A stretch of 64,000 bases of DNA. It comes from Xiphophorus maculatus (lineage: Eukaryota > Chordata > Actinopteri > Cyprinodontiformes > Poeciliidae). A program made the translations under genes and the position numbers. Location: contig NC_036461.1 in the NCBI RefSeq assembly GCF_002775205.1, positions 13,553,015 to 13,617,014 on the forward strand, in the 5' to 3' direction. Below, in pieces: positions 22,001-63,590 of the stretch (within the stretch, counting starts at the first letter, position 1; the number at the start of each line of letters is the position of its first letter). Under the pieces are notes generated by a model. The model had not been told where the DNA came from and ran no database searches. It worked only from the letters and a program-made list of their open reading frames with translations.

Positions 22001-23892
22001 ATTATTATTGCATGTTCTACATGGAGCTGTAAAAACTTTAGCAGATGCAAAAACTTCCTGTGAGGCAACACATGAACTAGAAAAATGGTTTCAATTCATG
22101 TTGACATACTTCTGGTAGGAGGCTCATTCTTGCAAAGCATGATGGTGTTGTGATACGATTAAGTGGTACTTCTTTTGTCACACAACTCTATCTCCATCTG
22201 TTCTTACTAACATCACTTCTACCAAAAACTAACTATGTAATCAGAAACCCAATTTTCCTGTATTATAAGACATTTTTCCCATTTTATTAGTGAAATAATC
22301 TTTCAGTGGAACTAGACTTTTTTTATATATATATTAAGGATTTATTGATGAAGTCAGAGTTTAAAAAAACTCCTACTTCTACCAAGCTAGTTTTGTCTTA
22401 TTTCAAGTGTACCAATATATTTGCACTAGAAACCAGACCAAAATTACTTAGCAAGATTTTGTGTTTTTGTAGTGAAGGAATTCTCATGGAAAGCCAAGCT
22501 ATCTGTGACCATTCAAGAAAAACTAAATAAATAAAAATCACCCCCTTTTTCAGCTATTCAGGCAAAACAAAAAAACAGTCAAGGTATTGGGACAGATGTT
22601 ATATTTCTTCTATTTTCCATGCCGAACAATAACCTATACATAAATGAGATAAAGCTACTCATGTATTACAACTAAACTCATTTAACACTGGGTTAACATT
22701 CAGAACTCTCATAAAAAGTTTTGTTTCTGTCCAAAACACAAAAGCTTGTTTTTCTTACCTCATCTCTCTCTCTGAAGTACTTCACATCCAGGCCACATTC
22801 CATAATGACACCAGAAACGTCTCTTCCCAGAATGAGAGGAAACTCGCTGCCTGTCTGTTTGATATTCAGAGGATCTCTTTTCATAGCCATCGTAGCAGAG
22901 CCATAGCCACCTAAATCGGACAAAGTCGTTTTATCACTTTAGAGAAAAAAAACTCTTATTTACTACAGTGGAGACACGAAGACAATACCAAAACAATCTG
23001 GAACAGGAGTACAGTAGCTCAAAACCAGATTTTTCTCCTCCACATTTTTTCTATTACCACTGCAAAAATAAAGCCATAAGCTCAAATCTAAGATGTGTAT
23101 ATTTTTCAGTTCAGGGGTAGATTTAAAATACCCCTGAATTCAGACACAAAAATGAACATAAGTTATTCCACAAAAAGAAGACAGCAACAAATCAATTTCA
23201 TTGGCAAAGAATCCTATAGACCAAAAAGTATTTAAAAAACATCAGAGATATTCTGTTTTGCATGACTCTGCTGTCACAATAAAAAATGGAAAAAAAGGTA
23301 TATTAAAGATATAATAATCAAAAGAACAAGGCAAAAACAAAAACAAACAAAAAAAAACCCCGAATGTAAACATTTTAACCAAACAATCTGAGGATTCTCT
23401 CAGTTTAGCCCACAGTCATGCCACTTTTCAAAAACACAAATTGTCATTAGAAGCTGTGGCTAAATCTGAGATGTCGATTCCTTAACTGAAAAGACGAATA
23501 CAACCACGGGAAACATGAGATACTCAGTTCTGATGTCCTCTCTAAAACAGAACACAAGTTAAGGAAGTCCTCCAAGTATTCATTTTCATCGGTCTCGATT
23601 TAAACTGACCTCTCATGCTGACGTCAAGCGGGTTCAATCCAGCTGCAAACACCTTTATAATCACTTCATTGGGGTAATTGATGATGGGGAAGCTGGCGTT
23701 ATTTGTGAAACGCAGTACGTCATTATTTCCATATTGATCAATAACCCAAGCAGGCATGATGGTCATGGCTTTGCTGGAGGTCCGGATCAGTCTGCTCTGG
23801 TTTCTTTGCCAGCCATGGAGTCTGTGCTCACACACGGATTTACTGAGGTGTCGAAGCAACCTTCTGTGCATCAAATATCTAACACAACTCAT
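16085..23892 (-). CDS. rtn4ip1: rtn4ip1, mitochondrial NAD(P)H oxidoreductase (NOGO-interacting protein 1)
   Basis: Zinc-free MDR (quinone-reductase-like) oxidoreductase. The human protein works in the mitochondrial matrix, is linked to coenzyme Q synthesis, and causes optic atrophy when mutated. Nine exons in gene order: 23892-23610, 22910-22759, 21261-21193, 20937-20813, 20125-20077, 19510-19374, 19261-19078, 16380-16288, 16204-16085, all GT-AG and in phase, giving 403 residues (human 396). Clear family blocks are [47 protein letters not shown], the nucleotide-binding loop [29 protein letters not shown] and [11 protein letters not shown]. The N-terminus is Arg/Leu/Ser-rich and fits a mitochondrial presequence. 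I chose MSCVRYLMH at 23,892; an in-frame Met eight codons upstream (23,916) is the alternative. The gene is head-to-head with qrsl1. Confidence 0.96.
19590..19745. repeat. Degraded fish interspersed repeat in an rtn4ip1 intron
   Basis: The stretch contains words such as TTACACTGCATTCCG, CATTCACC, GTCCAAGGACACATCA and GGTGGCAGTGGAGG. These match the common fish repeat with a CATTCACACACTGGTGG core, a better copy of which lies at 47,500-47,660. It is too decayed to classify. Confidence 0.4.
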
Positions 23893-24274
23893 GTTTACAG
23901 ACTCGATACAAATCAAATGTTCGTCTGTTAAACGGAGAGCTAAAGCAGTTAATCCGTGCAGCTGTAAACTATTCTATGTCCTTATCTTTCAAACTGTACG
24001 TTATTATAAAACATGCATAATATTTGCAGAAAACTTAAGAATTAAAATATTTGAACCATTTCAAAACCACGTCCTATTCTTCGGTAACTTTCTTCCTGCT
24101 ACCTGACACGGCGAGTAACTTCACCAATCACAACGCTGTTTCTTCAGCAGCCAGCCAATCACAGACAGCGCTGTTAGCAGTCGATTGTAGACCCAGACAT
24201 GGCGGCTTACAGGTGGAACACACTCTGCTAATGTTGATGGTAATTTGAAGGGTGACCGGAGAAAATCAGCAGAT
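23893..24274. promoter_or_regulatory. Bidirectional rtn4ip1/qrsl1 promoter
   Basis: Only 382 bases separate the two start codons of these head-to-head genes. Two CCAAT boxes lie at 24124-24128 and 24155-24159, the second in the NF-Y-like context CAGCCAATCACAG. A YY1-like ATGGCGGC lies at 24199-24206, a motif common in genes for mitochondrial proteins. There is no TATA box. The ATG in the YY1-like word also opens a ten-codon ORF ending at 24231, upstream of the qrsl1 start. Motifs were seen directly; shared use is inferred. Confidence 0.7.
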
Positions 24275-29474
<5,200 letters not shown>

Positions 29475-37080: not shown

Positions 37081-38640
37081 AACAACATTTAAACCAATTT
37101 TCTTGCCTGACTGGTGTCAAACTGTTCTTGACACCAGTTTTACTGCATCTTACTTACCTCATTCAACCAGAACGTAGATACAGTAAAAGCTGGTTCTCAG
37201 TACTTTGAATAGCTGACGATCTGTAATGAAACTGACGTCAGTGTGAAACCTTCCCTAAAAGTGTAAAACTAGACTACAATAGATATCAGAGTGTAAGTGG
37301 AAGGCTTATGCTGGCTTCCTTCAGTTTTAAATCAACCATGTTTGTGAAGATAAATAGCTCACACTGGTTCCAAACTAACAAATGATCAGTAAAAGTAAGT
37401 GCCAAAAGACTGACTTCATAATTCAAAAATTGGCGCTGTTTTAAGCTGTTGGACCACATTAGGTTTAACCCCTAAAATGGATGGCTCTAATACATTTTTG
37501 AAATCTCCTGAATAACATAACTCACAATAAGTGAGTGCACACATCTGCTTATTGCTTTAAGATGTACGTGTAGAATAGAACTAAATTTCAGAAATAGGAT
37601 GAGTTGAACATTAATAAGTTTTAAATAGGAGACAAAAAAAAAATCAACTCAGTGCTGAATGCTCTGGAGTGTCCATCTGTCCTCCACTGCATTTCATGAA
37701 CTCACATCTACCCTACTAAAAGAGAAATGAGGAAGTAGAGGTGATGCTTTCAGTAGTTACACACTAACCGCACAAAAACACCTGAATACACTTCAAGTTA
37801 AATGACTGTTGCAGGAATCTGACTGCGGCTTCAGCAATTCTCTTTTTCTTTCACTATGTGTGACTTCAGAGGGAGAAACAGAAATTCAAGATGAACACAA
37901 ATGTCTGTTCAAAAGGTCTCTATGGTTTCTGATTTGGAACTGAGGATTGGGTAGGGTAGGGGGCTTATGGATCACGAAGCACGGGTCCTGATAGGAATCC
38001 AACAGATAAGAAGAGGTGGAGAATGGAGCCTTTGTGTGGTGATCAGAGCAGGATACAATTCCCACCCAGATTGGAAGTGGGTGCCGGGAGGAGGTGGGAC
38101 AAAGAAAAGGTGAATTCCAGCATTCTTTCAAAGATAGAGAGACCCTTTGAGGCCCCCTCGACAGGTGAAGGAGGAGAAATGGTTCGGCAGCCTCATTATT
38201 GGGAATATTGCAAAGATGACTTCAACTAAATTCTCATTGTTTTCAAGTCACAAAATGTAAATTATGTAGGACAGAATACTCAAAATTGAAAAATCAAAGT
38301 GAGAAACAGTACTTAAGGTGGAATTTTCCAAAGATGTGCTGTATCTTGGAGATACAACAATATTTATTCATATTACAGTTTGTATGCAAATCCCAACCAC
38401 TGAAGGGAAGGACGAGTTAAAAAGCATTATTTTAATAGATGGCAAATCAGCATTTTAAAGAAAGGGTCACTTGTGTTTTGGAAACCTTAAATACTACTGT
38501 CTCTCACTCCACACTGCTGCCACTTCAGTGCACAGTGTTGAATGAAAGGTTTGCTCACATTACAACAGTTGAAGCAAACCCAGGCAGCCCCAGAGGCAAC
38601 AGAAGATAAACATCACAGTATGCATTTCTTTCACTGGCAG

Positions 38641-38646
38641 TTTATT
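38641..38646 (-). terminator. cd24-like A poly(A) signal
   Basis: AATAAA on the minus strand, 367 bases past the copy A stop codon. The same signal is kept in copy B at 44,388-44,393. Confidence 0.5.
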
Positions 38647-39012
38647 TAATGGTTGATGCATCCACTTATATCTTACAATAAATCAGCAAGAAAACAATTG
38701 TCATTACAGTTTTATTCAACTGAAAGGATTTAAGGCACACCACTTAAAATCTGAAAGCATATTAAAGTGTTAAAACATTTTGACCCACCAACACATAGAA
38801 ATATAAGAATTTTCCTGAATAAGAACATCTTAAAGTCCATGACAGCACCAAGTGCTTGCTGCACCAACTAGAATTGCTAGATTGCTGTAATCCATTAAAA
38901 CCTTGATGTAGTTCCCTCCACAAAATTAAATAGGCAAACTTATTGAAAGATTTCCATTGAGGATAATGTTAGATGAGCAGATGACAACTTTCGAAACTGT
39001 CAGATTGTGTTA

Positions 39013-40403
39013 TCAGGCATAAAATTGGGAAGCTGTTAAAGCCAGAGGAAGCAGCACTGGTAGAAATTTGAAGGTTGAGGCTGAAGATGCAGTGCCCTTC
39101 AAAGCTGTGGCATTGGTTGAAGTGGGGGTTGTTGGAGCCGAGGTAGTTGTTGTAGCAGAGATGGTTGTTGGAGCCGAGGTGGTTGTTGTAGCAGAGGTGG
39201 TTGTTGTAGCCAAGGTGGTTGTTGTAATAGAGGTAGTTGTTGTAGCCAAGGTGGTTGTTGTAGTAGAGGTAGTTGTTGGAGCAGAGGTGGTTGTTGGAGC
39301 AGAGGTGGTTGTTGTAGTAGAGGTAGTTGTTGGAGCCAAGGTGGTTGTTGGAGCAGAGGTGGTTGTTGTAGTAGAGGTAGTTGTTGGAGCCAAAGTGGTT
39401 GTTGGAGCAGAGGTGGTTGTTGTAGTAGAGGTAGTTGTTGGAGCCAAGGTGGTTGTTGGAGCAGAGGTGGTTGTTGTAGTAGAGGTGGTTGTTGGAGCAG
39501 AGGTGGTTGTTGTAGTAGAGGTAGTTGTTGGAGCCAAAGTGGTTGTTGGAGCAGAGGTGGTTGTTGTAGTAGAGGTAGTTGTTGGAGCCAAGGTGGTTGT
39601 TGGAGCAGAGGTGGTTGTTGTAGTAGAGGTAGTTGTTGGAGCCAAAGTGGTTGTTGGAGCAGAGGTGGTTGTTGTAGTAGAGGTAGTTGTTGGAGCCAAG
39701 GTGGTTGTTGGAGCAGAGGTGGTTGTTGTAGTAGAGGTGGTTGTTGGAGCCAAAGTGGTTGTTAGAGTAGAGGCAGTTGTTGAAGCAGAGGTAGTTGTTG
39801 GAGCCAAAGTGGTTGTTAGAGCAGAGGCAGTTGTTGAAGCAGAGGTAGTTGTTGGAGCAGAGGTGGTTGTTGAAGCAGAGGTGGTTGTTGAAGCAGAGGT
39901 GGTTGTTGGAGCCAAAATGGTTGTTAGAGCAGAGATAGTTGTTGGTTGTGTCCAAACCACCTGCAATACAACATTATGGTTTATATGCAATTTAAAATTT
40001 TCCCCATGAACACTGGGCTCTATTCAGGATTAGACATTAGTTTTGTATGGATGCATTAGACTGTGTCCTGTTCCATTGTTTTAATACCTCCTTTGGCCTA
40101 TTAACTGTAAGCAGATAGAACTTTTATGAAAAAAATGTGCTGGAGCTAGGAAACGTCTAAAGAATCAAAGGTACTGAGCAGTATATAAGAACACTATAAG
40201 GCAGTAGGTCACTTATTTTAAACTAACAAAACACAAATACAACAGGGGCTTAAATTAAGAATATATAAACTTTGAGGAAAATATTCCAATATTGAGAAGT
40301 AAATAATCAAGTTTGTCTAATAATAATAAACACTGAAATGTAAACTAACCTGTGATGACAGATGGAAAGTGAATAGAGCAGCTGCAAAGAAACCGAACAA
40401 CAT
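39013..40403 (-). CDS. cd24: cd24-like gene A: long Thr-rich, GPI-type surface mucin
   Basis: Two exons, 40403-40350 (signal peptide, [18 protein letters not shown]) and 39960-39013, joined in phase 0 across a 389-base GT-AG intron; 333 residues. The mature part starts VVWTQPTT and continues as about 45 Thr-rich hexapeptides ([18 protein letters not shown]). It ends in a unique segment with one N-glycosylation site (TNATALKG) and a hydrophobic tail, [17 protein letters not shown], with no charged end, as in a GPI signal. Human CD24 has the same plan and a similar C-terminal run (TNATTKAAGGALQSTAS...), and it also lies just beyond QRSL1, so I call this CD24-like. It is four to five times longer than normal CD24 (about 80 residues) because of the repeat. 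The likely role is a heavily O-glycosylated cell-surface ligand. Orthology is inferred. Confidence 0.75.
39131..39955 (-). repeat. Coding minisatellite: 18-bp units in the cd24-like A mucin domain
   Basis: About 45 units of 18 bases (given-strand consensus GTGGTTGTTGGAGCAGAG and variants) make Thr-rich hexapeptides on the minus strand. The centre shows a higher-order 54-base unit ([18 protein letters not shown]) repeated about eight times almost without change, while the flanking units are more diverged. The unit length is a multiple of three, so expansion keeps frame and leaves several frames open on both strands. Confidence 0.95.
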
Positions 40404-40469
40404 CTTGATCAGCTTGGTGATTCCAGTAGGATTCTGTGTACAATGAACAATGTAGGAAACTCTGCAATG

Positions 40470-40476
40470 TTTTAAT
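40470..40476 (-). promoter_or_regulatory. Possible TATA-like element of cd24-like A
   Basis: An ATTAAAA-type word lies about 70 bases upstream of the copy A start codon. A matching word sits at about the same distance in copy B (near 45,424-45,430). The position mirrors the better TATA boxes of copies C and D. Confidence 0.3.
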
Positions 40477-41117
40477 TGCTGTGGGAATTTTCCAAGCTGG
40501 AAACCAAACCTGTTTTATCATGCATTATTCAAAGCCATCTGGATGAGTGTATGTTTGTATGTTAATGTGAATACAAATATACTCTCATATTTGACTGGGG
40601 AGGTGTTTCTATGTAGCCTAGATATGGAAATGTTCTGCATCTCTTCAAGGATTGGGTCAATATTATCAATTAGTAAAAAAATAATGTCACATTTTTCAAA
40701 TGTGTATTTAATTGTACACATGGCATTGAAAATCAGGAAATTGAAAAACAAAGATTTTACTCAAACTGACTTCAGATACACTTTGCAGGTTTCCTCAAGC
40801 CCACTTGAGGCTCATGGTGAGTTTGAGAAATCGTCATGTCAGTATGTGTTTTATCAGCGGAGCCACAAATTCTGCTCTTTAACAGAAAGAAGATGGAACA
40901 TGTAAAGCAAGCCGTAGGTTTGTGACCCTAAGCTTAAAGGTACTGCGAACAATGATCCAAACAATACCAGCAAGTCCACCCCAAAATTAGAAACACACCA
41001 TCCATGGTCAAAAACCAGGAATGGTATGTTTTCAACCACCAAGGAAGAGTTAAGCCATAGCAATTGTTGCACCCATGAATGGCACAACCAGGGCAACAGT
41101 AAGTGCAATTAGTTTTT

Positions 41118-42147
41118 CCTGTTGTAACCCACTAGCTCAGGTTACAACAGGAAATAAGATTAATTACCATAACTACGTGGATGATGCACAGCTTTACATT
41201 ATGATGTCACTGAACAGATGACTGAATCATCCATTCACTGAACAGATGCTTAGAACAAATAATGTGTGGATGTGCCAAAACTTTCTACAGCTGAACAGAA
41301 ACAAACTGAAGTTATTATCTTTGGACCTAAACAGGAACAATCAAGAACCAATGCACAGCTTCAATTATTACAACTAAAAACTAGTGATCAGGCCCGAAAC
41401 CTGGGAGTAGTGATGGACTCTGAGCTGAACCTTCAGAGCCAAATAAAGACAGTCACAAAGTCGGCCTTCTATCACTTGAAGAACATTTCCCAGAATAGAG
41501 GACTAATATCTCAGCGAGATTTAGAGAAACCCATGTGTTTATCTATAGTCACATTGATTACTGCAACAGTGTCTTCACAGGTCTGCCTAACAAATCAGGC
41601 AGCTACAGCTGATACAGAACACTACTGCTCATGTTCTCACTAAAACTAAGAAGATACATCACACCAGTTCTAAAGTGCCTACACTGGCTCCCTGTAGCTC
41701 AGAGAATAGACTTTAAAATACTGTTAGTTTATAAGTCACTGAACAGTTTAGTGCCACAATACATTAAAGATCTGCTGTTATTGTATCAATCTTCCAGTCC
41801 TCTCAGGCCTTCTGGTTCTGGTCTGCTCTGCATCCCCAGAAACAGAACCAAATGAAGAGAAGCAGCATTCAGCTTCTGTGCACCACAAATCTGGGACAAA
41901 CTTCCAGAAAACTACAAAACTGCTGAAACACCGAGTGCCTTTAAATTTAAACTAAAAACTCACCTGTTTAGAGTAACCTTTGAAGCATAAATGATTAAGA
42001 ATTTAAAGATGGCACTTGAGTAAATGTAATGATTCAATTGTTGATTCTATGTTGAATGACTTTGTGTTTTTTGTGTTTTTACTTTGAAATGCCTTGTTGC
42101 TGAGATGTGCTATACAAATAAAAGTTAATTGATTTTGATTTGATTTT
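41118..42147 (+). mobile_element. L2/CR1-like LINE 3' fragment inserted in duplication unit 1
   Basis: It contains the reverse-transcriptase catalytic segment NYVDDAQLYI (41,171-41,200), then FLQLNRNKTEVIIFGPK-like, RNLGVVMDSELNLQSQIK and LKCLHWLPVAQRIDFKILL segments. The 3' end is TGCTATACAAATAAAAGTTA followed by a TTGATTT-type tail, as in L2 elements. It is 5'-truncated and its coding frame is interrupted. The paralogous site in unit 2 (near 45,957) is empty. A 12-bp inverted repeat (41,118-41,129 with 41,139-41,150) sits at its left end. Confidence 0.85.
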
Positions 42148-42379
42148 ACTCATGGTCCAAGTTGACTTGGATAGCTTTTATCTCCTGCTTAAATAAAATC
42201 ATTGAAAAACTGTTTTGTTTATAGTGATGTTATGTTTAGTATTAAACACTGCTCCTCAACACCTTTGCAGCAGTTAATGCTGTCATTTAAATCAGGTGCA
42301 TTGGAGCAGAGATGCATCTAAAACATGAAGGATAGTGAACAACTGAGAACCAGGATGAGGAAACACTGCTAATAATGAT

Positions 42380-43085
42380 GCCCTGACCTCTGTCTTTTAG
42401 TTACTTTTTTACCACTGTCTCCGTCTGTCTAGTTATTCCTTATTTCAGCCTCCCTCATAGTCTAGTTTTCTTATCTTGTTACCTTAGGTTTAGTTCTTCT
42501 TTATATCCATGTCCATCTTTCTTTGGTGATTCTAGTTAGGTTATTTATTTGCTTAGTCCTAGTTGTTCTAGCTCTTATTATTTTTAGAGCAGCCTTGTTT
42601 CTGTCTTGGTACTTTCATAGTTTCCCCTCTCTTTCTAGTTTATCATGTTTTCTTTTAGCGTTAGAATTAGTTACAGCTCCTTTATATTACTTTCCTCACT
42701 CTTTTGTGTTCCCCTGTATATGTATGCAATTGTCCTGTGCCACTTTCTCCCAAACCCCTCACCATGGCTCCTGCTTACCACTCTCCCCTACAATCAATTA
42801 GCTCATCAGCCCAGTCTACCTCTCTACCTCCCAGTATTTTAGCCTCTCATTCTCTCCCATTACTCATCTGATTCTTATGTCTACTCACCTCAGTCCTCTC
42901 TGTGTCCCTGTTTCTACCCCATGTCTCCTGGCTGGAAGTTATTTTGGTTTAATTTTTGCTGTTATCTATGATCTTCTATTTTTGTAAGTGTTTAGCATTT
43001 TTTCATTAGATCATCTAACTCAGTTGCTGCCTCTGCCTCTTTGCTTTTGGGTCCACACTTCAACAACCAACATCATGACAGTCTC
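42380..43085 (+). mobile_element. Probable LINE 3' untranslated tail (Rex1/Babar-like)
   Basis: A long pyrimidine-rich stretch without good open frames ends in TTTGGGTCCACACTTCAACA, then CCAACATCATGACAG. This layout resembles the long C/T-rich tails of some fish LINEs. There is no coding part, so the assignment is tentative. Confidence 0.35.
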
Positions 43086-43619
43086 TCTCCTAATCAAAGC
43101 TTTTGGCTGAAATTTTACTGCATCTAACTGTATACATTAACTGCTCTTTTTCATCCAATATACTGTCTCAGCTTATCTGTTTAGCTGTTTTTCTCTCCTA
43201 GATGAAGCCACTAAAGGTGCAACTACTGCCACCAACTTTTTACCTTTCTTGGTACTCATGGATCAGTGCTTCTGTGTCTTTTTGTGTATCTGCTCTGTCT
43301 TCTCAAACCTCTAGTTGGTCACTCACACTGCAAGCAACTGTCCACTGTAAATGCAACTGCAACTCCATGACTACGCAACTTGCTGGATTTTCTGAGACAG
43401 AAAAGCTTTTAACCAATTTGAATACACTGAACTTGACTGCACTGGTTTATAATTAGGATCATTTGGAATGTTCACTAGAAATCTGTCTGTGTGATTGTGC
43501 CTTGAGATGACATGTGTTGTGAATTTAATCTGGCAGTCATGGAATGCATATTAAAGGTCAACCAGCCAATCCACATTTACAAAACTGAGAAACACATAAG
43601 CTGGAAGTTTCCAATAATA

Positions 43620-44090
43620 ATGCATTTTATTTGACAGCATCGTTCAAAACACCCAAGGACACTTAACATTAAAAAACACAAATTAAACAGTAAAGAAATG
43701 GCTACAAAGACACAAATTAACTACACAATTAAAGTGAGAAGGCTAACTTGAACAGATGAGAATTGCGTTGTGCTTTGAAGGTCAGAAGAGAGTCAATTTT
43801 ATGGATGTCAGAGGGAAGAGTATTCCAGAGTTGGGAAGCAGAGTAAGAGAAGGCTCTTTTCCCCATGGTGATGCAACCGACAGGAAGAACACTGAGGTGG
43901 ATGGAAGAGGAAGAACGGTGGGAACGTGAATGGGTGGTGATGTGCAGAAGATCAGACAAGTAAGGAGGGCCAAGGTTGTGAACTGAGTGTAAACAACAAG
44001 ATTTTAAATTAAATTCTGAATGTGACAGGTAGCCAGTGAAGTCGTTTCCAACAATGCAAAGTTTCCAAAAATGAAAGATAAATGTGATGT
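43620..44090 (-). mobile_element. LINE-like ORF2 C-terminal fragment next to duplication unit 2
   Basis: The minus strand codes a segment typical of the end of fish LINE ORF2 proteins: GPPYLSDLLHITTHSRSHRS, then FSYSASQLWNTLPSDI and FKAQRNSHLFKLAF, stopping at 43,729. It stops exactly where unit 2 homology begins (about 44,090), so it may lie at the duplication breakpoint. Confidence 0.55.
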
Positions 44091-46189
44091 AACTAGGAGA
44101 TACAAAAATATTCATTCATATTACAGCTTGTTTGCAAATCCCAACCATTGAATGGAAGGATGAGTTTAAAGCATTATTTTAATAGATGGCAAATCAGCAT
44201 TTTAAAGAAAGGGTCACTTGTATTTTGGAAACCTTAAATACTACTGTCTCTCACTCCACACTGCTGCCACTTCAGTGCACAGTGTTGAATGAAAGGTTTG
44301 CTCACATTACAACAGTTGAAGCAAACCCAGGGAGCCCCAGAGGCAACAGAAGATAAACATCACAGTATGCATTTCTTTCACTGGCAGTTTATTTAATGGT
44401 TGATGCATCCACTTACATATATCTTACAATAAATCAGCAAGAAAACAATTGTCATTACAGCTTTATTCAACTGAAAGGATTTAAGGCACACCGCTTAAAA
44501 TCTGAAAGCATATTAAAGTGTTAAGACATTTAACCCACCAACACATAGAAATATAAGAATTTTCCAGAATAAGAACATCTTAAAGTCCATGACAGCACCA
44601 AGTAAAAATCAGGACTTGTGTAGAGCAACTAGAATTGCTGGATTGCTGTAGTCCATTAAAACCTTGATGTAGTTCCCTCCACAAAATTAAATAAGCAAAC
44701 TTATTGAAAGATTTCCATTGAGGATAATGTTAGATGAGCAGATGACAACTTTCCAAATTGTCAGATTGTGTTATCAGACATAAAGTTGGGAAGCTGTAAA
44801 AGCCAGAGGAAGCAGCACTGGTGGAAATTTGAAGGTTGAGGCTGAAGATGCAGTGCGATTCAAAGCCGTGGCATTGGTTGAAGTGGGGGATGTTGGAGCC
44901 AAGGTGGTTGTTGAATCTGCCCAAACCATCTGCAATAAGTCATTATGGTTTAAATGCAAGTTAAAATGTTCCTTCTAGTAGTACTTTTATGAATAAATTG
45001 TGCTGAAGTTGGGAAACATCTAAATAACACAAGGTGCTGAGCCATATGGAAGATCACTATAAGGTCATAGTCCACTCATTTCAAGCTCATAAACACAACA
45101 GGAGCATAAAATTTAGTGCTTATTAGCTTTGAGGAAAATATTTCAGATCAAAGTTTAAGAATTCTAATTAGAACAAGCTAGTCTTCCTTTCATAACTGAG
45201 GGTTAAAATTTCATGAAAGTTACCAGTCCCTCAAAAATGAGAAGCACCTAATCAAGTTTGTTTAATATTAAAAATAATAAACACTGAAATGTAAACTAAC
45301 CTGTGATGACAGATGAAAAGTGAACAGAACAGCTGCAAAGAAACCGAACAACATCTTGATCTGCTTGATGATTCCAGTAGGATTCTGTGTTCTCAAGTGA
45401 AGAATGGAAGGGACCCTGCAATGTTTTAATCGGTGTGGGAGTTTTCCAAGCTGGAGACCACACCCGTTTTTTCATGCATTATTCTAGCCCATTTGGATGA
45501 AAGTCTGTATTTTTCTTTTAATATGAAAGGCCTCATTTCCATATTTGACTGAGGGATGTTTCTGTGTAGCCTACATATGGAAATATTCTGCATCTCTTCC
45601 AGGATTCTGATAAACTTTGCAAGCCTCAAGTGGGCACGGTTTACATTTGCGAACATTTGAGAACTCATGTTAGTGTGTATTTAATCAGCGGAGCCACAAA
45701 TTCTGCTCTCTAACAGAAAGGAGATGGAATATGTCCTGCCATAAATTTGTGTCCTTAAGCTTAACAGTACTGCAAACAATGATCCAAATGCCAGCAAGTC
45801 CACACCAAATTTAGAAACACACCATTCATGATCAAAAATCCTCCCATGTGGTTGTTCAACCACATTCAACTACCAACAAAGAGTAAAGTCTTACTATCTT
45901 AGCAATTGTTGCACCCAAATATGGCATAACCAGGACAACGGTAAGGGAAATTAGTTGTTTAGCCATGGTCCACGTTGATTTGGATAGATATGTTCCTCTG
46001 TTTAAATAAAATCATAAAATCAATCATAGACAGTTTTGTCTATAGTGATGTTATCTTTGATATTAAACCCTGCTCCTCCACATCCATCCAGCAGTTAATG
46101 CTACCATTTGCATCAGGTGTATTGGAACAGAGATCTAAAATATGAAGGACAGCAACCCCTGTGGACCAGGATGAGGAAATACTACTAAC
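44090..46189. repeat. Segmental duplication unit 2 (contains cd24-like copy B)
   Basis: Same-orientation copy of 38,340-42,372, without the mucin minisatellite and without the L2-like LINE. Homology covers the 3' flank, both exons, the intron and about 0.8 kb upstream. It ends near GGATGAGGAAATACTACTAA. Confidence 0.85.
44774..45354 (-). CDS. cd24: cd24-like gene B: short GPI-type sialomucin
   Basis: Two exons, 45354-45301 ([18 protein letters not shown]) and 44929-44774, in phase 0 across a 371-base intron; 69 residues, close to normal CD24 length. The mature part is MVWADSTTTLAP, then [17 protein letters not shown] with two N-glycosylation sequons (NAT, NRT), then the hydrophobic anchor signal FPPVLLPLAFTASQLYV. 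It keeps a single TTTLAP hexapeptide where copy A has about 45. It is the nearest thing here to an ordinary CD24. The upstream region and poly(A) signal (44,388-44,393) match copy A. I see no disabling change. Confidence 0.72.
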
Positions 46190-46291
46190 CCATTCAATCC
46201 CAAACTTTTTCCCTATACCTTGCTACATCATTACTTTAGTGCAACATTTGCACTGTAAAGTACACATTTGACTATCTGTATATTCTAAACC

Positions 46292-46492
46292 AGGGGTGGG
46301 CAACTCCAGGCCTCGAGGGCCGGTCTCCTGCAACTTTTAGATGCATCTCTACTTCAACACACCTGAGTCAAATAATGAGGTCATTAGCAGGACTCTGGAG
46401 AACTTGACTGCACTTAGGAGGTGATTCAGCTATCTAATATATCCAAGAGTTGCAGGACACTGGCTCTTGAGGACCAGGATTGCCCACCCCTG
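46292..46492. mobile_element. hAT-type MITE 1
   Basis: About 201 bases with near-complementary ends (AGGGGTGGGCAACTCC on the left, TTGCCCACCCCTG on the right). It is flanked by the 8-bp direct repeat TCTAAACC at 46284-46291 and 46493-46500, as in hAT elements. No coding capacity. Confidence 0.8.
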
Positions 46493-46602
46493 TCTAAACC
46501 AAAGTAAATTTGAGAGCTTATGTGCTTATGCATAATTTTATTGAACTTCGGTCAGTTGTAGTGTCATCACAGCAACATAGATCATAAAGATAACTTCTAG
46601 AG

Positions 46603-46845
46603 CAGGGGTGTCAAACTCCAGTCCTCAAGGGCCAGTGCCCTGCAGTTTTTAGATGTGCCACAGGTACATAACAATGGAATGAAATGGCTTAATTACCTCC
46701 TTCTTGGGACGGTAAGAAAAACATGTAGATCAGTTCTCCAGAGCCTTGCTAATGACCTAATTATTCTATTCAGGTGTGGTGCAGCAGAGACACATCTAAA
46801 AGTTGCAGGGCAGTGGCCCTCCAGGACTGGAGTTTGACACATGTG
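46603..46845. mobile_element. hAT-type MITE 2
   Basis: About 243 bases with ends CAGGGGTGTCAAACTCCAGT and ACTGGAGTTTGACACATGTG. It is flanked by a perfect 8-bp duplication, TTCTAGAG (46595-46602 and 46846-46853). It is related to, but distinct from, the element 110 bases to its left. Confidence 0.85.
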
Positions 46846-46928
46846 TTCTAGAGTATAGGTCTTCATTTATGTTATTGAAAATCATGAACATTTGTCAGTC
46901 AAACTGTCATACAGTAATAGACTTAGTC

Positions 46929-47138
46929 CAGAGGTCTTCAACTCCAGGGATTGAGGGCCAGTGTCATACATCTTTTCCATCTATCTGCTTCAATTCACCT
47001 GAGTCAAATAATCAGGCCATTAGCAGGGCTCTGGAGAACTTGACTGCATACTGAGGAGGTGATCCATTTGATTCAGGTGTGTTGGACCAAGGACACAATC
47101 TGAAAGACACCGGACCCCAAGGCCTGGAATCAAAGGCC
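46929..47138. mobile_element. hAT-type MITE 3, decayed
   Basis: It shares internal words with MITE 1 (CACCTGAGTCAAATAAT, CATTAGCAGG, CTCTGGAGAACTTGACTGCA) and has weak ends (CTTCAACTCCAGGG and CCTGGAATCAAAGG). No clear target duplication remains. Confidence 0.6.
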
Positions 47139-47499
47139 AGTTGTATAGCTCCTTCTCACCATTTGGTGACTTTGGTATTCTTCAATTTTGGATTATTTCA
47201 TCCCTTCCATGATATTTGCAATAAAGCCTAGAATTTCTCCCAGGCATGGGTGGTGCAAAAGCAACATCTCTGGAAATGATTCTTGATTTGACTGACCAGT
47301 AAGTGGTCAGTCAATGCAAGACTGACCACTAGATCACTTATTGTAATATCTTGAAGAGAAGTGTCCATTTGAGATCTATTTCCATGACTTACTGACCTTG
47401 TGCCAAACCTTTGCATAACATAATAAGCCACAACCCATGAGAAGGTGAGCAAATCGGTCGTCCCTCCTATGACACATTTGTAAGACAATCTCTAAAAGG

Positions 47500-47660
47500 T
47501 AAATTGCCTGTACTTGTATAGTTCTTTATCAAGTCCAAATGACCTGAAAGTGCTTTTGACCACATTTAGTCATCCACCGATTCACACACATTCACACACT
47601 GATGAGAGTAAGCTACTATATTGTAGCTATAGCTTTCCTGGCACAGTTTGAAAGAAGCAA
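47500..47660. repeat. Fish interspersed repeat (CATTCACACAC type)
   Basis: The order TTGTATAGTTCTTTATCAAG, GTGCTTTTGACCACATTTAG, GATTCACACACATTCACACA and AAGCTACTATATTGTAGC follows a repeat seen throughout fish genomes. It is related to the poorer copy at 19,590-19,745. Confidence 0.5.
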
Positions 47661-47728
47661 GGCAGTCTTACACTAGCCTTGCTTGTGTAAGACTGCCTTA
47701 CACAAGCAGTGTAAGGCAGTCTTACACA
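47659..47728. repeat. Three alternating arms of one inverted repeat
   Basis: The word AAGGCAGTCTTACAC (47,659) occurs again at 47,712 and, as its exact complement, at 47,685. The second and third arms pair perfectly over at least 19 bases (47,684-47,702 with 47,710-47,728). Either of two hairpins could form, sharing the middle arm. Confidence 0.8.
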
Positions 47729-48066
47729 AGCAAAGCTATTTGGTGTCAATAAACTTCGCTACCTTTGTGCTGGTTTGTGAAGCAAACCAGTACAATTTTT
47801 AAGACTTTAATTAAAATGTTTTCAGAAGTCATCAGAGATAAACTTGTCACTCTACATTAACAAAATCCAATGTATCAACCAATTGTGCCAAGTTTGTGCA
47901 GCTAAATATTTTCATAGCACAGTTGATTGATACATTTGTTTGATTTGAAAATGTTGGGGGCTGGTTGACCCTTAAAACATTTATTAATATCTTTAAAATG
48001 ACAGCAGTGCAAGCAATTTTTATGCCAGGACAAAGCCAGGACAAACATTTGACACTAATTTAATTT

Positions 48067-48270
48067 CTTTTTTCTCCGAAGAGTTTTTGCAGCGCTAGTG
48101 GCTCGTATTTTTTCGACAGTAGGCAGACAGGAAGGAGGGTGAGGAGAGGGGGGAAGACATTCGGCAAAGGTCGTCGGGACTGGGAGTCGAACCCGCGACG
48201 GCCGCGTCGAGGACTAAGGCCTCCAAACGTGGGGCGTGCTGACCCCCTGCGCCACCACAGCACGCCCCAC
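48067..48270 (-). mobile_element. tRNA-derived SINE with target-site duplication
   Basis: On the minus strand the head has an A-box-like TGGTGGCGCAGGGGG and a B-box-like GGGTTCGACTCC. The body (TTTGCCGAATGTCTTCCC, TTCCTGTCTGCCTACTGTCG) ends in an A-rich tail, AGAAAAAAGAAA. A 16-bp direct repeat with one mismatch flanks it (48,051-48,066 and 48,271-48,286). It looks fairly young. The body matches the older copy at 9,418-9,580. Confidence 0.85.
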
Positions 48271-48957
48271 GACACCAATTTAATTTGATTTAGAGAAGAA
48301 GGGAGGGGAGGGGGTGAAACTGCACTCAGGTTAAATATAGTACTATGCACCAGCAACATCCACAAACAGCAACGGATGACAACACCGGTGTACTTGGTCC
48401 TTTGGGGATTCATTTTTGCTTTCAAAAAAATGATGTGATGGAAAATGGAATGCTGGAAAAGACTATTTTTGTGTGCATGTCGTTCAAGAAAAGAGTTTGC
48501 CCACCACTGAAGCTACTCAAGTCTAAAACACCATACCAGTGCAAAATATCTTGCACTGGGATGAAAACACTTAAAAGGGTGTGTTGAATAAGAGACAGAT
48601 ACAGAGTGAAGTATTTTATTTCTTGTGTGTTTTTGTGCAGTGGCATCTCAGCTGGAACTGATGGTGACCTGTTAAAATAAAACAAACAAATGGATGGGTC
48701 TTGTAACTGTTTGAAATACAATGAAATGTCATGTAAATGTGGCTTACCTCTGTCTCTTCCTCTGCAGGGTGTTCAGGCTAAAAGAGTCCCCAGGGGCCTG
48801 AGCACCTTATAAAGGTTCCGGAGGAGACCAATGCAGATGGAAGAGGGGGAGAGATAGAATGATGCATTTTAGAAGTTTAATGATTAGATTTATATTTATA
48901 AAAAGGTATTTTTAGAAATGAAATGGCTGCTTAAAAATGAAGAGCATTTGTTAATAT

Positions 48958-49232
48958 TGTGTTGAAGATTTGGTTGTTTGTCAAGATTGTTTCTGTACAT
49001 ATATTTTGTCCTACCCTGTTTCTTGGTGGGGTTGTTAATTAGAGCAGCCAGGAACTATAAAAACCTGCATGTTGGCCACATTGCAGGTTGGTTAGGTGTG
49101 GTTGCTGCTGAGACCCATAGCCGTAGTAAGCAGGATTGTCTAAGTGTTAAATGTTGGAGAATAAACACCCGGTTGGTCTGCACTATTTCTCTGCTTCAAG
49201 ACTTTAAACCAGCTGCTAAGGGCTATTCTAAC
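48958..49232 (+). mobile_element. Possible solo LTR (fossil)
   Basis: The stretch begins TGTTGAAG and ends ATTCTAACA. It has a TATA-type word (TATAAAA, 49,056) and a poly(A) signal (AATAAA, 49,160) about 100 bases later, the layout of a retroelement long terminal repeat. No target duplication or internal coding region was found, so this is tentative. Confidence 0.25.
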
Positions 49233-49259
49233 AGTCCCCAATGCTATTATTAGCGTCCA

Positions 49260-50225
49260 CAATCCACACTTCTATTGAAGTATTTCTTCAAAGAAGTTAC
49301 ATCAAAGATGAGCAATTTCTGAAACACTCAAAAGCTGAATGGGTATAACATTTGTGCCAATCTGATGGTTGAATAACTTAAATAGCAGCTTAAAAAATAA
49401 ATATATTTGCTGAACTCATATGTCTATTTCTTCAATAATCTAGCTGCAAAAAGGGTCTGGGTTTTTTATTATAAACTGTGCTTATTTTGCATATATATAT
49501 TTTGACTTAAATGTGATTGCTGACCCAGCAATTAACTTGATTACAAATTTTAAGTTTTGTTTAGAAAAATAGGAATCCTCATTTAAGAGTACAAAGCTAA
49601 AGATGTTTTAGAATCTGCCATCACAGCTGTATTACAACTCAGTTCACATTTGACCAATCTATGCAATGCAGTTTTCATGTCATTGTCACCTGGTCCCTTT
49701 GTCAGGGTGACAAGACAAGTTTTACCGTTGAAATAAACTCCTTTTCTGTGGCAGTTTTTGCATGACTACTGCTCCATCAAATCCCTCCTGCTCAACAACT
49801 AAATTGCAGGGTATTAAATTCTGGGATGGAATAAAATTCAATGCAGTCCAACAAGCAGCACAAAAGAAAAGCAATTTTCACAAACAATAGGCACTAGTTA
49901 TCTGGTTAACTTCCAGTATAGCCCTCAACAACTGTCACTTTTTTCTGTGCCTCTGATTGAACCTCTTCTGCATAGAGCCATCAGTGCAGGTCCTGTCAGT
50001 TGCAGTCAAGATTGCGGGTTGGGGAAGTCTGTCGAGTGACTCTTGTGCAGTTTAAAAGTAGGTAAAGTCAATGTCAGACTTTTTGTAGTGTATGCACCAT
50101 AAATATTGTCCACTCCCCCCAGCAATACACAAGAGTTTCAGCCAAGTTCTCATTGGCACTCTGGGGTAAATAAAACTGAATCAGAGTCAGATGGACTGCA
50201 AGCTGACCAACTTACAAATGTTTAG
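49260..50225. other. Gene-free stretch before the cd24-like C locus
   Basis: I see no coding exon, RNA gene or clear mobile element. Open frames are short and unremarkable. Confidence 0.5.
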
Positions 50226-50234
50226 CTTTTTTAA

Positions 50235-50385
50235 GTTTGTTACTGGGTTAGTAGGCACCCAGTAAGTGCCTACTTACTGGGTGCCTACTTACCCAGTGAA
50301 TGCCTACACCCAGTAAGTGCTTACTTACTGGGTGCCTACTTACCCAGTGAATGCCTACACCCAGTAAGTGCCTACTTACTTGGTG
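50235..50385. repeat. Short palindromic tandem repeat
   Basis: A unit of about 50 bases (TTACCCAGTGAATGCCTACA, then CCCAGTAAGTGCTTACTTAC, then TGGGTGCCTACT) is repeated about 2.5 times. Within it, CCCAGTAAGTGCCTAC and its complement alternate, so the array is both tandem and self-complementary. Confidence 0.8.
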
Positions 50386-50517
50386 TGCCTCAGCCCCAAA
50401 CACCATTGCAATTTCACCACATTAGTCAAACATTGCGATTAGTGCTTTGGCAAATTTGTTTTATGGTTAACAGAGATTCAGACAAGCAAACTGCAATAGA
50501 GTCAGGTTAGGGGAAAG

Positions 50518-50543
50518 GGGGGGGGGGGGGGGGGGGGGGGGGG
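50518..50543 (+). repeat. Run of 26 guanines
   Basis: An uninterrupted G run preceded by GGGGAAA. It lies in the 3' flank of cd24-like C, about 0.43 kb past its stop codon. The length may be inexact because such runs sequence poorly. Confidence 0.9.
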
Positions 50544-50653
50544 TCCAAAGTGGCAATTTTAACTAGCAGGATTTGAGCCAGCTGTCTCATTTCAGCAGCA
50601 GGACCTGAAATGTCTAATTTAATCTCAGTGAATGAAGGCAGACATTTTACACC

Positions 50654-50659
50654 TTTATT
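50654..50659 (-). terminator. cd24-like C poly(A) signal
   Basis: AATAAA on the minus strand, 314 bases past the copy C stop codon. If used, the transcript ends before the poly-G run. Confidence 0.45.
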
Positions 50660-50972
50660 TACTTCAAGTTTCACAGCACTTAAATAGATACAAATATTTG
50701 CAATGAAGTTGATCAGAACTACTTTCATTTTAAAATCCTCTTAATAGATACATTTTCTCCCACACCCACAAACATTTCTACACAGATTTAGTATTCTTCC
50801 TGATTTATAGCTCATAAGACACCCAGAAAGGATCAGGACGTCCAGAGAAGAAAAGGGCGAGTCCTGCTTTGGTGCGTAAAACGGATGAAAAAAAAAGTTC
50901 TTTAGGGAACTTCATCTTGAGGCGGTAGACTTTTGCATCCGCTGTCCATCTGGGTCCACAGTACGGGTGAAG

Positions 50973-51495
50973 TTAGTCCCAACCCCGGGACCAGTCGTGA
51001 AGGAGGACAGCCGCTAAAGTCAAAGGGAGCAGGAGCAGCGGGACGGCGGTGGTCATTCCACTCATGCTGGCGGTGTTGGTTGTGACAGGGGGTTTGATGG
51101 TGGTCCCGTTGGCGGCGTTTGCCTGGATAATCTGCAAAAACAGCAGCAAGTGCGTCAAGATTTAGTCCGTGCAAATCACAGCTTCACGTAGTTAAAACAT
51201 AAACCAAAACACCGATCGATTCGAGATCAATGAGGAGAAAGTAGCTCTACTTAAATCCAGCGTAAAATCAGCAGAGAAAGGTCTGATGGTACTACTGGCA
51301 CATTAAAAACGGGGTACCGTTAAAATAATAAAGCCTGAAAGAAATGCCACGCAAACATTCCCGTCAGAATAAGAACGCCAATAAAAATAGGAGAAATGTT
51401 TTCAAGGAGAAAAAAACAAAACAAAAACTAACCTGGGATGAGATGCAAAAAGCCAGCAGCAGAGCTGACAGCAAGGCGACGGGCAAATTATTCAT
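50973..51495 (-). CDS. cd24-like gene C: short surface mucin with an unusual charged C-terminus
   Basis: Two exons, 51495-51433 (signal peptide MNNLPVALLSALLLAFCISSQ) and 51131-50973, in phase 0 across a 301-base intron; 73 residues. The mature part starts IIQANAANGTTIKPPVTTNT, with one N-glycosylation sequon (NGT). A hydrophobic stretch, AVPLLLLPLTLAAVLL, follows, and then eight polar or charged residues, HDWSRGWD. GPI signals normally end in the hydrophobic part, so this copy may be a single-pass membrane protein or a less efficient GPI substrate. The signal exon ends in ISSQ at the splice site, exactly as in copy D and like LSSQ in A and B, which ties the four genes together. A TATA box lies 67 bases upstream. 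Confidence 0.75.
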
Positions 51496-51561
51496 CTTGC
51501 TGGTTGATGTTCAGGCAGCAAGTTTGCTCGTAAGTGATTCAAACAGGAGATGCTGCTGAGC

Positions 51562-51569
51562 TTTTTATA
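51562..51569 (-). promoter_or_regulatory. TATA box of cd24-like C
   Basis: TATAAAAA on the minus strand, 67 bases before the copy C start codon. Copy D has the same word at a similar place. Confidence 0.65.
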
Positions 51570-51599
51570 CTGCAAGTGACATCAGCACCATCATCATCA

Positions 51600-52790
51600 A
51601 CACAATCCTCAGCGTAACCCTAACCCATGCTGCCTTCAAGGTTTGTATGGAAATTATCAAATCAAATGATATTAATTATAATAATATATATTTAGCCGCA
51701 ACTTTAATGTTTTCAAGATAAAATATGTTGATAAATAAAACCAAGAGTTTATAATATACATGACTGTGAATGAGCTGTGTCGTTTTCCTAATAAAAAACA
51801 ACTTAATAATGACCATCACAAATGCAGGAAAATTATCCTACAAAATCTCCAATAAAACAATAAATAGTCTTTAAAGTGTATTCATTAAATACACACATTG
51901 TATTACTAGGAGGCAGAGTCACATGAAACACACAGAAAGTGCAGGTGCATTTAACTAAATTCACCAATAAATACCTAATAGAAGTAAAACATATTTTATA
52001 TATTAATTACACTCAGGAATATGTAGTCCAGATGTTCATTTTTATCCATTTTGAACAATAATTTTGTTAGTGGTGCATGTGCACTGATTTATCGACCAAC
52101 CGATTTATCAGCGCTGATTTCCATAATTTTGGTATGGGGGCAAAAGAAAAATCTCTCTCTATTTATGCCCCACTTTTCAGATTTGTAAAAAATGTTCAAA
52201 ACCATTCATTTTCTTCCTAATTGAATTGAAAAGGTGGTACTTCTTTTGTTCTGAGAATTTTAAATGTGATAAAAACATTTTTTCCTTTTCCCCAAAATTA
52301 AATGCTTAGGATTCAAACTGCAAGTTGCACATGGCCATTTCAACTGGTACCAAAAAGCTAGTGTCTGTGGGTTTAAGAACATTGAATGTAAACACACTGG
52401 CATCATATTGTGAAATGTGGTTTTGCTCAGACATTTCAAAAGCTGTGAGTGAGGTCTGTCTTTGAAAGAACAGGTTGGCTTATATGGTTCACAAGAAAGT
52501 TATGCAAAACATACTGGTGTATTTTGTAGCACTGAAAATCGTTGCTAGAACTAAAGGCGAGTTTGTAGACTTTCAATTTAAAATGCTATAAAGACAGTAT
52601 CCAACGTGCTCTCATTAACTCAGTATGTAAACTCTGACTATTTCACAAGTACTGCTTTTGTTTACCATGTTTTGATATTTTTAATCCCATTGGCAAGAAG
52701 TGCACACTTTCATTTTCCTCCCATTGTCATTATAGACTGCATTGTCTTCCATTGCGGGTTTCTAGTACACTGGTCACTTAGGTTACCTAG
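51600..52790. other. Gene-free stretch between cd24-like C and D
   Basis: AT-rich, with no coding exon. Near 52,080-52,140 there is a decayed interspersed repeat (GATTTATCGACCAACCGATTTATCAG type). Nothing else can be supported. Confidence 0.45.
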
Positions 52791-52792
52791 TC

Positions 52793-52995
52793 CAGCGTTT
52801 CCCAACCCTGGTCCTCAAGGCACACTGCCCTGAATGTTTTAGGTATTTCCTTGCTTCAGTCCATCTGATTTCAATTGATGACTGATTAACAGGCTTTTGT
52901 TGAACTGCAATCAGTTGAATCAGGCACATTAAAGCAGAGAAACTTCTAAAACATGTAGGACAGTGTACCTTGAGGACCATGGTTGGTCAATAGCA
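52793..52995. mobile_element. hAT-type MITE 4, decayed right end
   Basis: The left end CAGCGTTTCCCAACCCTGGT, then CCTCAAGGCACACTGCCCTG, is complementary to the right part, GGACAGTGTACCTTGAGGAC followed by CATGGTTGG. The outer right end is lost. No coding capacity. Confidence 0.65.
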
Positions 52996-53528
52996 CCCAT
53001 TTTAAAAGTGAAAACCCTGAATATCAGAGACTGGTTTATTTAGAGTACTTTATAATTTGTTAGTCCCACCAAGCACAGGTTATTACAGTAACGTGGCCTA
53101 CCTACTTCACAGGCTTAGTCCATGGAGATGTTTTGTAGAGAAAGTCTGTCCAAACACTTTCAGCTTCTGTGGTAGGCCATGTTTAGAAAAAAAAAAAAAA
53201 AAAAAAAAACACACTTCCCAATGGAGAGTCACAACATCTATAAACCTGCAAAGGATAAATGGGTGCAAATAATAGTTGGACCTGCACTAGTTTGACACTA
53301 AAGCTCATATCAATTCACGACAATTGAATAGTCCAACTACTGAGAAGAGGAAACCACTTTAGTCTTGGGACCATTTCAAAACAGCTTTACTGGTTTCCAA
53401 TGTAAAGTTATCCTTAAATTGGAAGATAAAACTCAAGGCAAAGCCACAGCCTTCACTCATTGATTTCTATGGTCTAGAATCTACTGCACTTACCATGGAC
53501 TCAAGTTACACATTTTTCAATGTACAGC

Positions 53529-53534
53529 TTTATT
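53529..53534 (-). terminator. cd24-like D poly(A) signal
   Basis: AATAAA on the minus strand, 291 bases past the copy D stop codon. Confidence 0.45.
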
Positions 53535-53824
53535 CTGTCAGCCTAAAAGTCAGAAATTCTTATAAATATACAAAGTTTATCAAATGAAGCATTTCAAAAC
53601 AAAGCTTCCCAAGACTGAGTTAAGTCTTGTAGCCAGTACAATTTCACCTCCCTCATACATAACTTCCATGATACAAGTTTAACCAGGACATTAGAAAGGG
53701 ACTAGTTTGTTGTAGACACTGAAAACTCAACACAAGATAGAAAGTGGAAATCCAAGTGTGCTCAAGATTGTCCAGCTTTGAAGAGCTGCAACTTAAACTG
53801 ACAGCAAGAGTCCAGTCCGGCCAG

Positions 53825-54292
53825 TCACTGGCACCAAGCATAAACAGGAACCACCAAGAGCAGAGCGAGAAGCAGCAAAGGATTGCCTGCAGTCCTCCTA
53901 GGAGTACTTCCAGAGGTAGAGTTGAAGGTGGAATTGGTCACCGATGCAGTACTGCCAACAGTTGGCGTGACACTGGCAGAGACCGAGCTGTCAGCAGTTG
54001 GAGCAACACTGGTTAAGTCTGTCTCTTCAGTAGGTGGGGTAATACTGCTGGCAGTAGGCATATTTGGATCATCTTGTGTCCAGACCACCTGCAATAGTCA
54101 GAACATTCATTACTGAAAAAAATAAATTAAAAAAATAAGCCTGCATGCAAGTTCTGAAAAGTCATTTGAAACCTATTGTCCAAACTGACTTACAAAATAC
54201 CATACCAAAGGATTTTTCAATAAACAAACCTGAGATGAAATTTGAAAAGCCAGTAGGACAGCTGTAAGGACCACACCATACACTTGCTTCAT
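53825..54292 (-). CDS. cd24-like gene D: medium-length Ser/Thr-rich GPI-type mucin
   Basis: Two exons, 54292-54230 (signal peptide MKQVYGVVLTAVLLAFQISSQ) and 54088-53825, in phase 0 across a 141-base intron; 108 residues. The mature part starts VVWTQDDP, sharing VVWTQ with copy A. It continues as a non-repetitive Ser/Thr/Pro-rich stretch with two N-glycosylation sequons (TNST, FNST), and ends with a basic break, TPRRTAGN, before the hydrophobic tail PLLLLALLLVVPVYAWCQ. Unlike A, its length comes from non-repeated sequence. It is head-to-head with iars2, about 1.1 kb away. A TATA box lies 84 bases upstream of the start. Confidence 0.75.
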
Positions 54293-54375
54293 CTTGGCAG
54301 CAGTACACCAGACCAATGTCTGCTGCACCTTTCTGATCAGTCCTGAAATGAATGTCCAAAAAGCCCATTCCCAGG

Positions 54376-54383
54376 TTTTTATA
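54376..54383 (-). promoter_or_regulatory. TATA box of cd24-like D
   Basis: TATAAAAA on the minus strand, 84 bases before the copy D start codon, in the same arrangement as copy C. Confidence 0.65.
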
Positions 54384-54864
54384 CCAACCAGTGATACCAT
54401 CAACTAATAGAGGACACCTGTTGTCTATGTGTGGCCTTCAAGGACCATGGGGGAATAACATTTTGATTTAAATGTGAACCACGTTATAGAGCTGTTGCAA
54501 AAAGTAATGTTTTTAATCTGAGGAGTCTTCTAAAACTGCATTAAAAAACCCTAATAATGAGTTTATTTGCATTTAACATGAGATCTTGAAACTTAAATCT
54601 GTAAATACTGTCTAGTAATAGAGTTAAGAGTCACTTAGACAGTAAAAACCATTTAGTCACTGGAGGAATTTTACCCTATTCAGACATGCTCTTTCATTAC
54701 TCCTTGTTTGTAAGTGTTGATTTAATGACTTTTATATTGAAAAATAAAATTGATGTGGAAAAGTGTTTTCTTCTATCTTAATTTGTTATTTTGCAATCAC
54801 GTTGTTTATTTATATGTTGTTTAGTCTTCATCTTTAAAATATCAAGATCAGAAAAGAGGAGCAA

Positions 54865-54945
54865 ACAATTGCCTGACGTCCTCTGCCAGAGGTAGAGTTG
54901 AAGGTGGAATTTGTCACAGATGTGGTGACGAATTCCACAAAATCA
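54865..54945 (-). pseudogene. Fragment of a cd24-like D second exon
   Basis: The given-strand words CCAGAGGTAGAGTTGAAGGT and GGAATTTGTCAC repeat copy D positions 53,910-53,942 (CCAGAGGTAGAGTTGAAGGT, GGAATTGGTCAC). Weaker similarity (AATTGCCTG, TCCTC) extends to the left. Only about 80 bases remain, with no signal exon or anchor, so this is a relic of a further partial duplication. Confidence 0.7.

Positions 54946-55431: not shown

Positions 55432-63590
<8,159 letters not shown>

Follow-up and report, generated by a model that had tools for sequence, protein, structure and literature searches.

We identified a cluster of four intact two-exon genes, here termed A, B, C and D, on the minus strand of a 64,000-nucleotide stretch of the Xiphophorus maculatus genome (assembly GCF_002775205.1, contig NC_036461.1, positions 13,553,015 to 13,617,014; hereafter the window, with positions counted from its first letter). 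The genes lie between qrsl1 and iars2, with products of 333, 69, 73 and 108 amino acids respectively, and probably arose as the CD24 locus expanded locally in tandem, encoding signal-peptide-led, Ser/Thr-containing, glycosylated and C-terminally anchored surface proteins. We class them as a CD24-like family situated at the locus of CD24; their orthology, drawn from position, is likely but unproven.

Gene models were built from both strands of the region around 38-55 kb, GT..AG sites defining the exon joins. Gene A has its signal peptide on exon 1 (40350..40403, with the donor CAG^GTTAGT, the caret marking the splice site), while exon 2 (39013..39960) encodes a Thr/Ser/Pro-rich repeat stalk, a TNAT motif and a hydrophobic tail running to the stop codon. 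Gene B joins a signal-peptide exon (45301..45354) to an exon encoding a short stalk and a moderately hydrophobic tail (44774..44929). Gene C encodes the signal peptide MNNLPVALLSALLLAFCISSQ on exon 1 (51433..51495) and on exon 2 (50973..51131) a short stalk with a hydrophobic segment followed by the polar tail HDWSRGWD, and gene D encodes the signal peptide MKQVYGVVLTAVLLAFQISSQ (54230..54292) and a Ser/Thr-rich stalk with two NST sequons ahead of a hydrophobic tail (53825..54088). An earlier note on this DNA had described four minus-strand genes on one plan, with SSQ placed exactly at the splice site and introns of 140-390 bases, and the models agree on each count: the signal peptide ends in SSQ at the donor in all four genes, within the context TCATC(A/C/T)CAG^GTT(A/T)GTTT, and the phase-0 GT..AG introns measure 389, 371, 301 and 141 bases in A, B, C and D. 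The acceptor reads TTGCAG^ in each case, exon 2 beginning with VVW, MVW, IIQ and VVW in the same order. A TATA-like motif, which reads TATAAA in C and D and more loosely ATTAAAA in A and B, begins between -73 and -91 relative to the ATG, and the distance from each stop codon to the first AATAAA is 290-313 bases. All four are putatively expressed genes.

The first-exon pattern is clearly rare in the window. Both strands were scanned for exons of 15-30 codons that start with ATG, end in CAG^GT and encode a strongly hydrophobic core; under these criteria, set only after genes A-D were known, five matches emerged, namely the four genes and one chance match at 41533 in a plus-strand stretch that appears LINE-like (long interspersed nuclear element) by eye. 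To assess relatedness, local alignments were compared with 500 shuffles in which signal peptide, stalk and tail each kept their own composition. The observed score was reached by none of the shuffles for A-B and B-C, by one for B-D, two for C-D, 14 for A-D and 19 for A-C. Judged by these alignments the four genes are related beyond composition and, since they also have splice sequences in common, common descent is the simple reading.

Gene order in the window places the cluster at the expected position of CD24. Crystallin-type repeat exons on the plus strand, with weak Pfam matches under the cut-off and read by us as probable crybg1, are followed by rtn4ip1 on the minus strand, qrsl1 on the plus strand and then genes A-D on the minus strand. 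We take CRYBG1 to stand at the human CD24 locus too, and the human strand order to be CRYBG1+, RTN4IP1-, QRSL1+, CD24-, which matches that of the window. Human CD24 has been mapped to 6q21, close to RTN4IP1 and QRSL1 (PMC6581687), and the cluster likewise lies near both genes. The exon plan is also that of CD24: the signal peptide is on exon 1, and a single exon 2 holds the remainder of the protein and the 3' untranslated region (3' UTR) in four of four genes. Presumably exon 1 of human CD24 also encodes the signal peptide, its intron following PTQ where the window genes are split after SSQ in phase 0. Human CD24 3' UTR variants sit in exon 2 (PMC4490449).

Comparison with mammalian CD24 at the level of sequence weighs against descent from CD24. 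Human and mouse CD24 sequences served as positive controls for the Pfam family PF14984 and were detected at 88 and 85 bits, whereas the family matched none of the four proteins at E-values up to 10, gene A being also run in shortened form. In pairwise comparison the human CD24 scores were reached by 535, 138, 48 and 164 of 1000 shuffles, and the mouse scores by 14, 17, 110 and 6 of 1000, for A, B, C and D respectively, so that direct similarity to mammalian CD24 appears weak and inconsistent between the two species. Two further observations tell against the expansion reading as a whole. Over 63 codons, A and B show a non-synonymous divergence (dN) of 0.069 and a synonymous divergence (dS) of 0.080, with no sign of strong purifying selection, and the polar C-terminus of C and the modest C-terminal hydrophobicity of B (1.59) are atypical of a glycosylphosphatidylinositol (GPI) signal. 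PF14984 searched against the whole 704-Mb genome also gave no match, but no control responded either, leaving that search uninformative.

The weak similarity and the Pfam result could be explained if A-D were small mucins of local origin, GPI-type or secreted, with no descent from CD24, position and exon plan being coincidental and the plan common among short surface glycoproteins. We consider this unlikely, as the human CD24 neighbourhood and the exon plan are both shared, and as the profile miss is not surprising given that short mucins diverge fast. Moreover the sole match to mammalian CD24 in profile-profile comparison, 12 columns against GLAPNPTNATTK (P 5.8e-4, probability 29%), falls at equivalent positions in the two, on the TNAT motif that precedes the anchor region. 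Nor did any of the proteins fall within an unrelated mucin family, an outcome which the earlier note had named as telling against its proposal; no other Pfam family scored above the cut-off for A-D, the only matches lying far below it. The CD24 identity proposed in that note is upheld as regards position near rtn4ip1 and qrsl1, as in human, while membership by sequence is not.

A second alternative is that the genes are relatives of CD52 and not of CD24 itself. CD52 is a small GPI-type sialoglycoprotein with a two-exon plan, which the window genes resemble, although its neighbourhood, which we take to comprise CRYBG2 and others, differs from the rtn4ip1 and qrsl1 genes that mark the CD24 locus. 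Even with the description of CD52 as a CD24 paralogue (PMC4792398), we regard a CD52 origin as very improbable.

Under the preferred reading, expansion of the CD24 locus, the family shares with CD24 tiny, signal-peptide-led, Ser/Thr-containing proteins, a hydrophobic C-terminus and the QRSL1/RTN4IP1 neighbourhood, together with a TNAT sequon before the anchor region in A and B. It differs in that the window holds four tandem genes and a relic, whereas human has one intron-bearing gene with intronless pseudogenes elsewhere (PMC9604962), in the 333 amino acids and tandem-repeat stalk of A against the 80 amino acids of human CD24 (PMC9604962), and in the missing PF14984 match. The stalks, delimited by our own cuts, measure 293, 29, 26 and 67 residues in A, B, C and D and would presumably be disordered. 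Lengths of about 50 to 315 residues had been suggested previously, but these are the whole exon-2 products, counted separately here at 315, 51, 52 and 87 amino acids with the anchor signal included; the suggested variation in length by in-frame repeat holds. Serine and threonine make up 0.69, 0.45, 0.27 and 0.42 of the stalks of A, B, C and D, with C the poorest, and N-glycosylation sequons number 1, 2, 1 and 2. A short Ser/Thr-rich core with sequons, as in CD24, is present in the family, but A is far longer than CD24.

Near the C-terminus the best 11-residue Kyte-Doolittle mean is 2.17 for A, 1.59 for B, 2.57 for C and 3.24 for D, hydropathy alone being considered; the anchor signals stand out more clearly in A and D than in B, with its modest hydrophobicity, and in C, with its polar tail. 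GPI anchoring would be most likely for A, B and D, while C, ending in HDWSRGWD, may be either GPI-anchored or transmembrane. The products would be small surface sialomucins whose backbone chiefly provides a support for O- and N-glycans, their outward presentation set by stalk length and glycans and not by a folded domain, as in mammalian CD24, and might act as lectin ligands or in cell shielding. The stalk of A, lengthened by its in-frame 18-residue repeat, would stand far out from the membrane.

The repeat of gene A occupies 39127..39945 on the minus strand and consists of 6-residue subunits (18 bp) within an 18-residue (54 bp) higher-order unit. There are about 45 six-residue units, seven copies of one 18-residue unit differ by only 0-1 nucleotides, and comparison in units of 18, 36 and 54 bases revealed 0% indels with the frame kept. 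The Thr-rich repeat is a recent in-frame expansion that has stretched A about fivefold. In this respect A recalls tandem-repeat membrane mucins of the MUC1 type, which likewise carry an in-frame, recently amplified Thr/Ser/Pro repeat, but A has no Pfam domain and hence no SEA domain, no evident cytoplasmic tail and only a two-exon gene. An antifreeze glycoprotein was considered for A and dropped, the repeat of such proteins being the Ala-Ala-Thr tripeptide and the units of A not being of that type.

The array is stop-free in three of six frames, so that the openness of gene A alone proves nothing; its reading frame follows from the phase-0 join together with the tail that it has in common with B. 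A further possibility is that just one or two of the genes work (C, perhaps D) and that A and B are in decay, their frames open by chance, in the case of A through the stop-free repeat. The A-B dN/dS of about 0.86 and the decayed copy adjoining the cluster would fit such a history, but A and B both retain the start, signal peptide, donor, acceptor, frame, tail, TATA-like motif and polyadenylation signal, and the array has kept its frame with the absence of indels noted above. Decay of A and B is in our judgement quite unlikely.

A and B are, by sequence comparison, a recent duplicate pair and the youngest in the cluster. Self-comparison matched the block 38334-42372 (A) piecewise to 44082-46188 (B), the upstream region of A carrying extra sequence at 41118-42144. 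By eye this extra stretch resembles the 3' portion of a reverse transcriptase of LINE type, and its open reading frame (ORF) at 41263-41643 has no Pfam match. The 3' UTR and 3' flank of A (38334..39012, minus strand) are 95% identical over ungapped columns to 44082-44773 of B, rising to 0.96-0.99 in the middle, and the last 138 bases of exon 2 are 93% identical, while the intron is 80% identical with many gaps and the upstream DNA 79-82%. The difference in identity between 3' UTR and intron has a Fisher p of ~5e-12 with sites treated as independent. The 3' half of the pair was probably homogenised by later gene conversion. Conversion is preferred over constraint as the source of the identity because C and D show no conservation of this UTR, having in common with the A/B 3' UTR only matches of 13-20 bases.

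A fifth partial copy had been placed near 54,865 and was recovered at 54857..54922 on the minus strand, matching D exon 2 (53871-53946) at 76% over 76 columns (E 9e-10). Its peptide is split over two frames, with VTNSTFNSTSG in one and a stretch like RRTAGNPLLLLA in another, and by this match it is a decayed, frameshifted fragment of D exon 2 lying between D and iars2. Searches of the 704-Mb genome with proteins B, C and D, gene A being left out as sole query owing to its repeat, gave no convincing further copy, the best E outside the cluster being 0.05; the searches are insensitive. With protein C as query, both exons of gene C and two weak matches were returned; D likewise recovered both exons of its gene plus one weak match, and B both of its own exons, both A exons and three weak matches. 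As C and D found no sister and B found only A, diverged copies are not excluded by these searches. Two of the six weak matches were inspected and taken as chance: L003 (E 5.7) showed nothing alike in its overlapping frames, and L007 (E 0.05) contains one internal stop and lies by eye in a sphingomyelin-synthase-like gene. A frame on the opposite strand near L003 appears WD-repeat-like by eye. The others were L004 (E 8.0), L012 (E 0.6), L013 (E 1.0) and one with no locus assigned (E 2.1).

Mammalian CD24, the heat-stable antigen, is GPI-linked and heavily glycosylated, binds selectins, Siglec-10 and damage-associated molecular patterns, and acts as an innate immune checkpoint ligand (PMC9604962). 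Fish are reported to have, as a rule, only Siglec1, CD22, MAG and Siglec15, and to lack inhibitory CD33-related Siglecs, CD22 being suggested as a possible stand-in (PMC7226832). Because the fish Siglec set differs, any receptor in fish would differ from the mammalian one. A study of trout B cells states that no orthologues of CD19, CD23 and CD24 exist in the genomes of fish (PMC8227096), and a review says again that these markers were absent from trout B cells (PMC8818700); the two are not independent, the review appearing to report the same trout study. Among the matches listed in open-licence PMC text, none describes a CD24 gene or cluster from fish, though the genes may already be named in fish annotation. 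If the cluster is CD24, the claim of no fish orthologue made in PMC8227096 would be wrong, the gene being merely too short and fast-evolving for similarity searches, and synteny would recover it. We raise more tentatively the possibility that fish, or at least this lineage, kept CD24 at its ancestral place as a tandem, fast-changing mucin family with a length-variable member, perhaps polymorphic between individuals; on leukocytes, epithelia or gametes the family would provide a glycan shield or mark of self, and its lectin partner would be other than mammalian Siglec-10. The stalks of the cluster, from 26 to 293 residues on one gene plan, also form a natural series useful for testing what stalk length does in a glycan-bearing surface protein, and the cluster is a candidate hypervariable locus for population genetics.

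Of the flanking genes, an rtn4ip1 exon (23542..23973, minus strand) matched the structure of reticulon-4-interacting protein 1 (2vn8, E 1e-17), and qrsl1 (25085..28449, plus strand) was tested through its GatA/amidase exons at 25085-25375 and 28090-28449. The first exons of iars2, encoding isoleucine--tRNA ligase, span 55432..56578 on the plus strand, the exon at 56426-56578 being tested and the first exon from 55432 placed by reading only. An Rfam search of 28000-56000 gave no match at gathering thresholds. Just past the 3' end of gene B a minus-strand ORF of retroelement appearance (43729-44115) has no Pfam match, and several imperfect palindromic repeats were seen in self-comparison at 46279-47066 and 52802-52986, resembling miniature inverted-repeat transposable elements by eye. 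A tandem and inverted repeat of period 51 based on CACCCAGTAAGTGCCTA occupies 50242-50385, and an uninterrupted run of 27 G lies on the plus strand at 50517-50543, about 430 bases beyond the stop codon of gene C.

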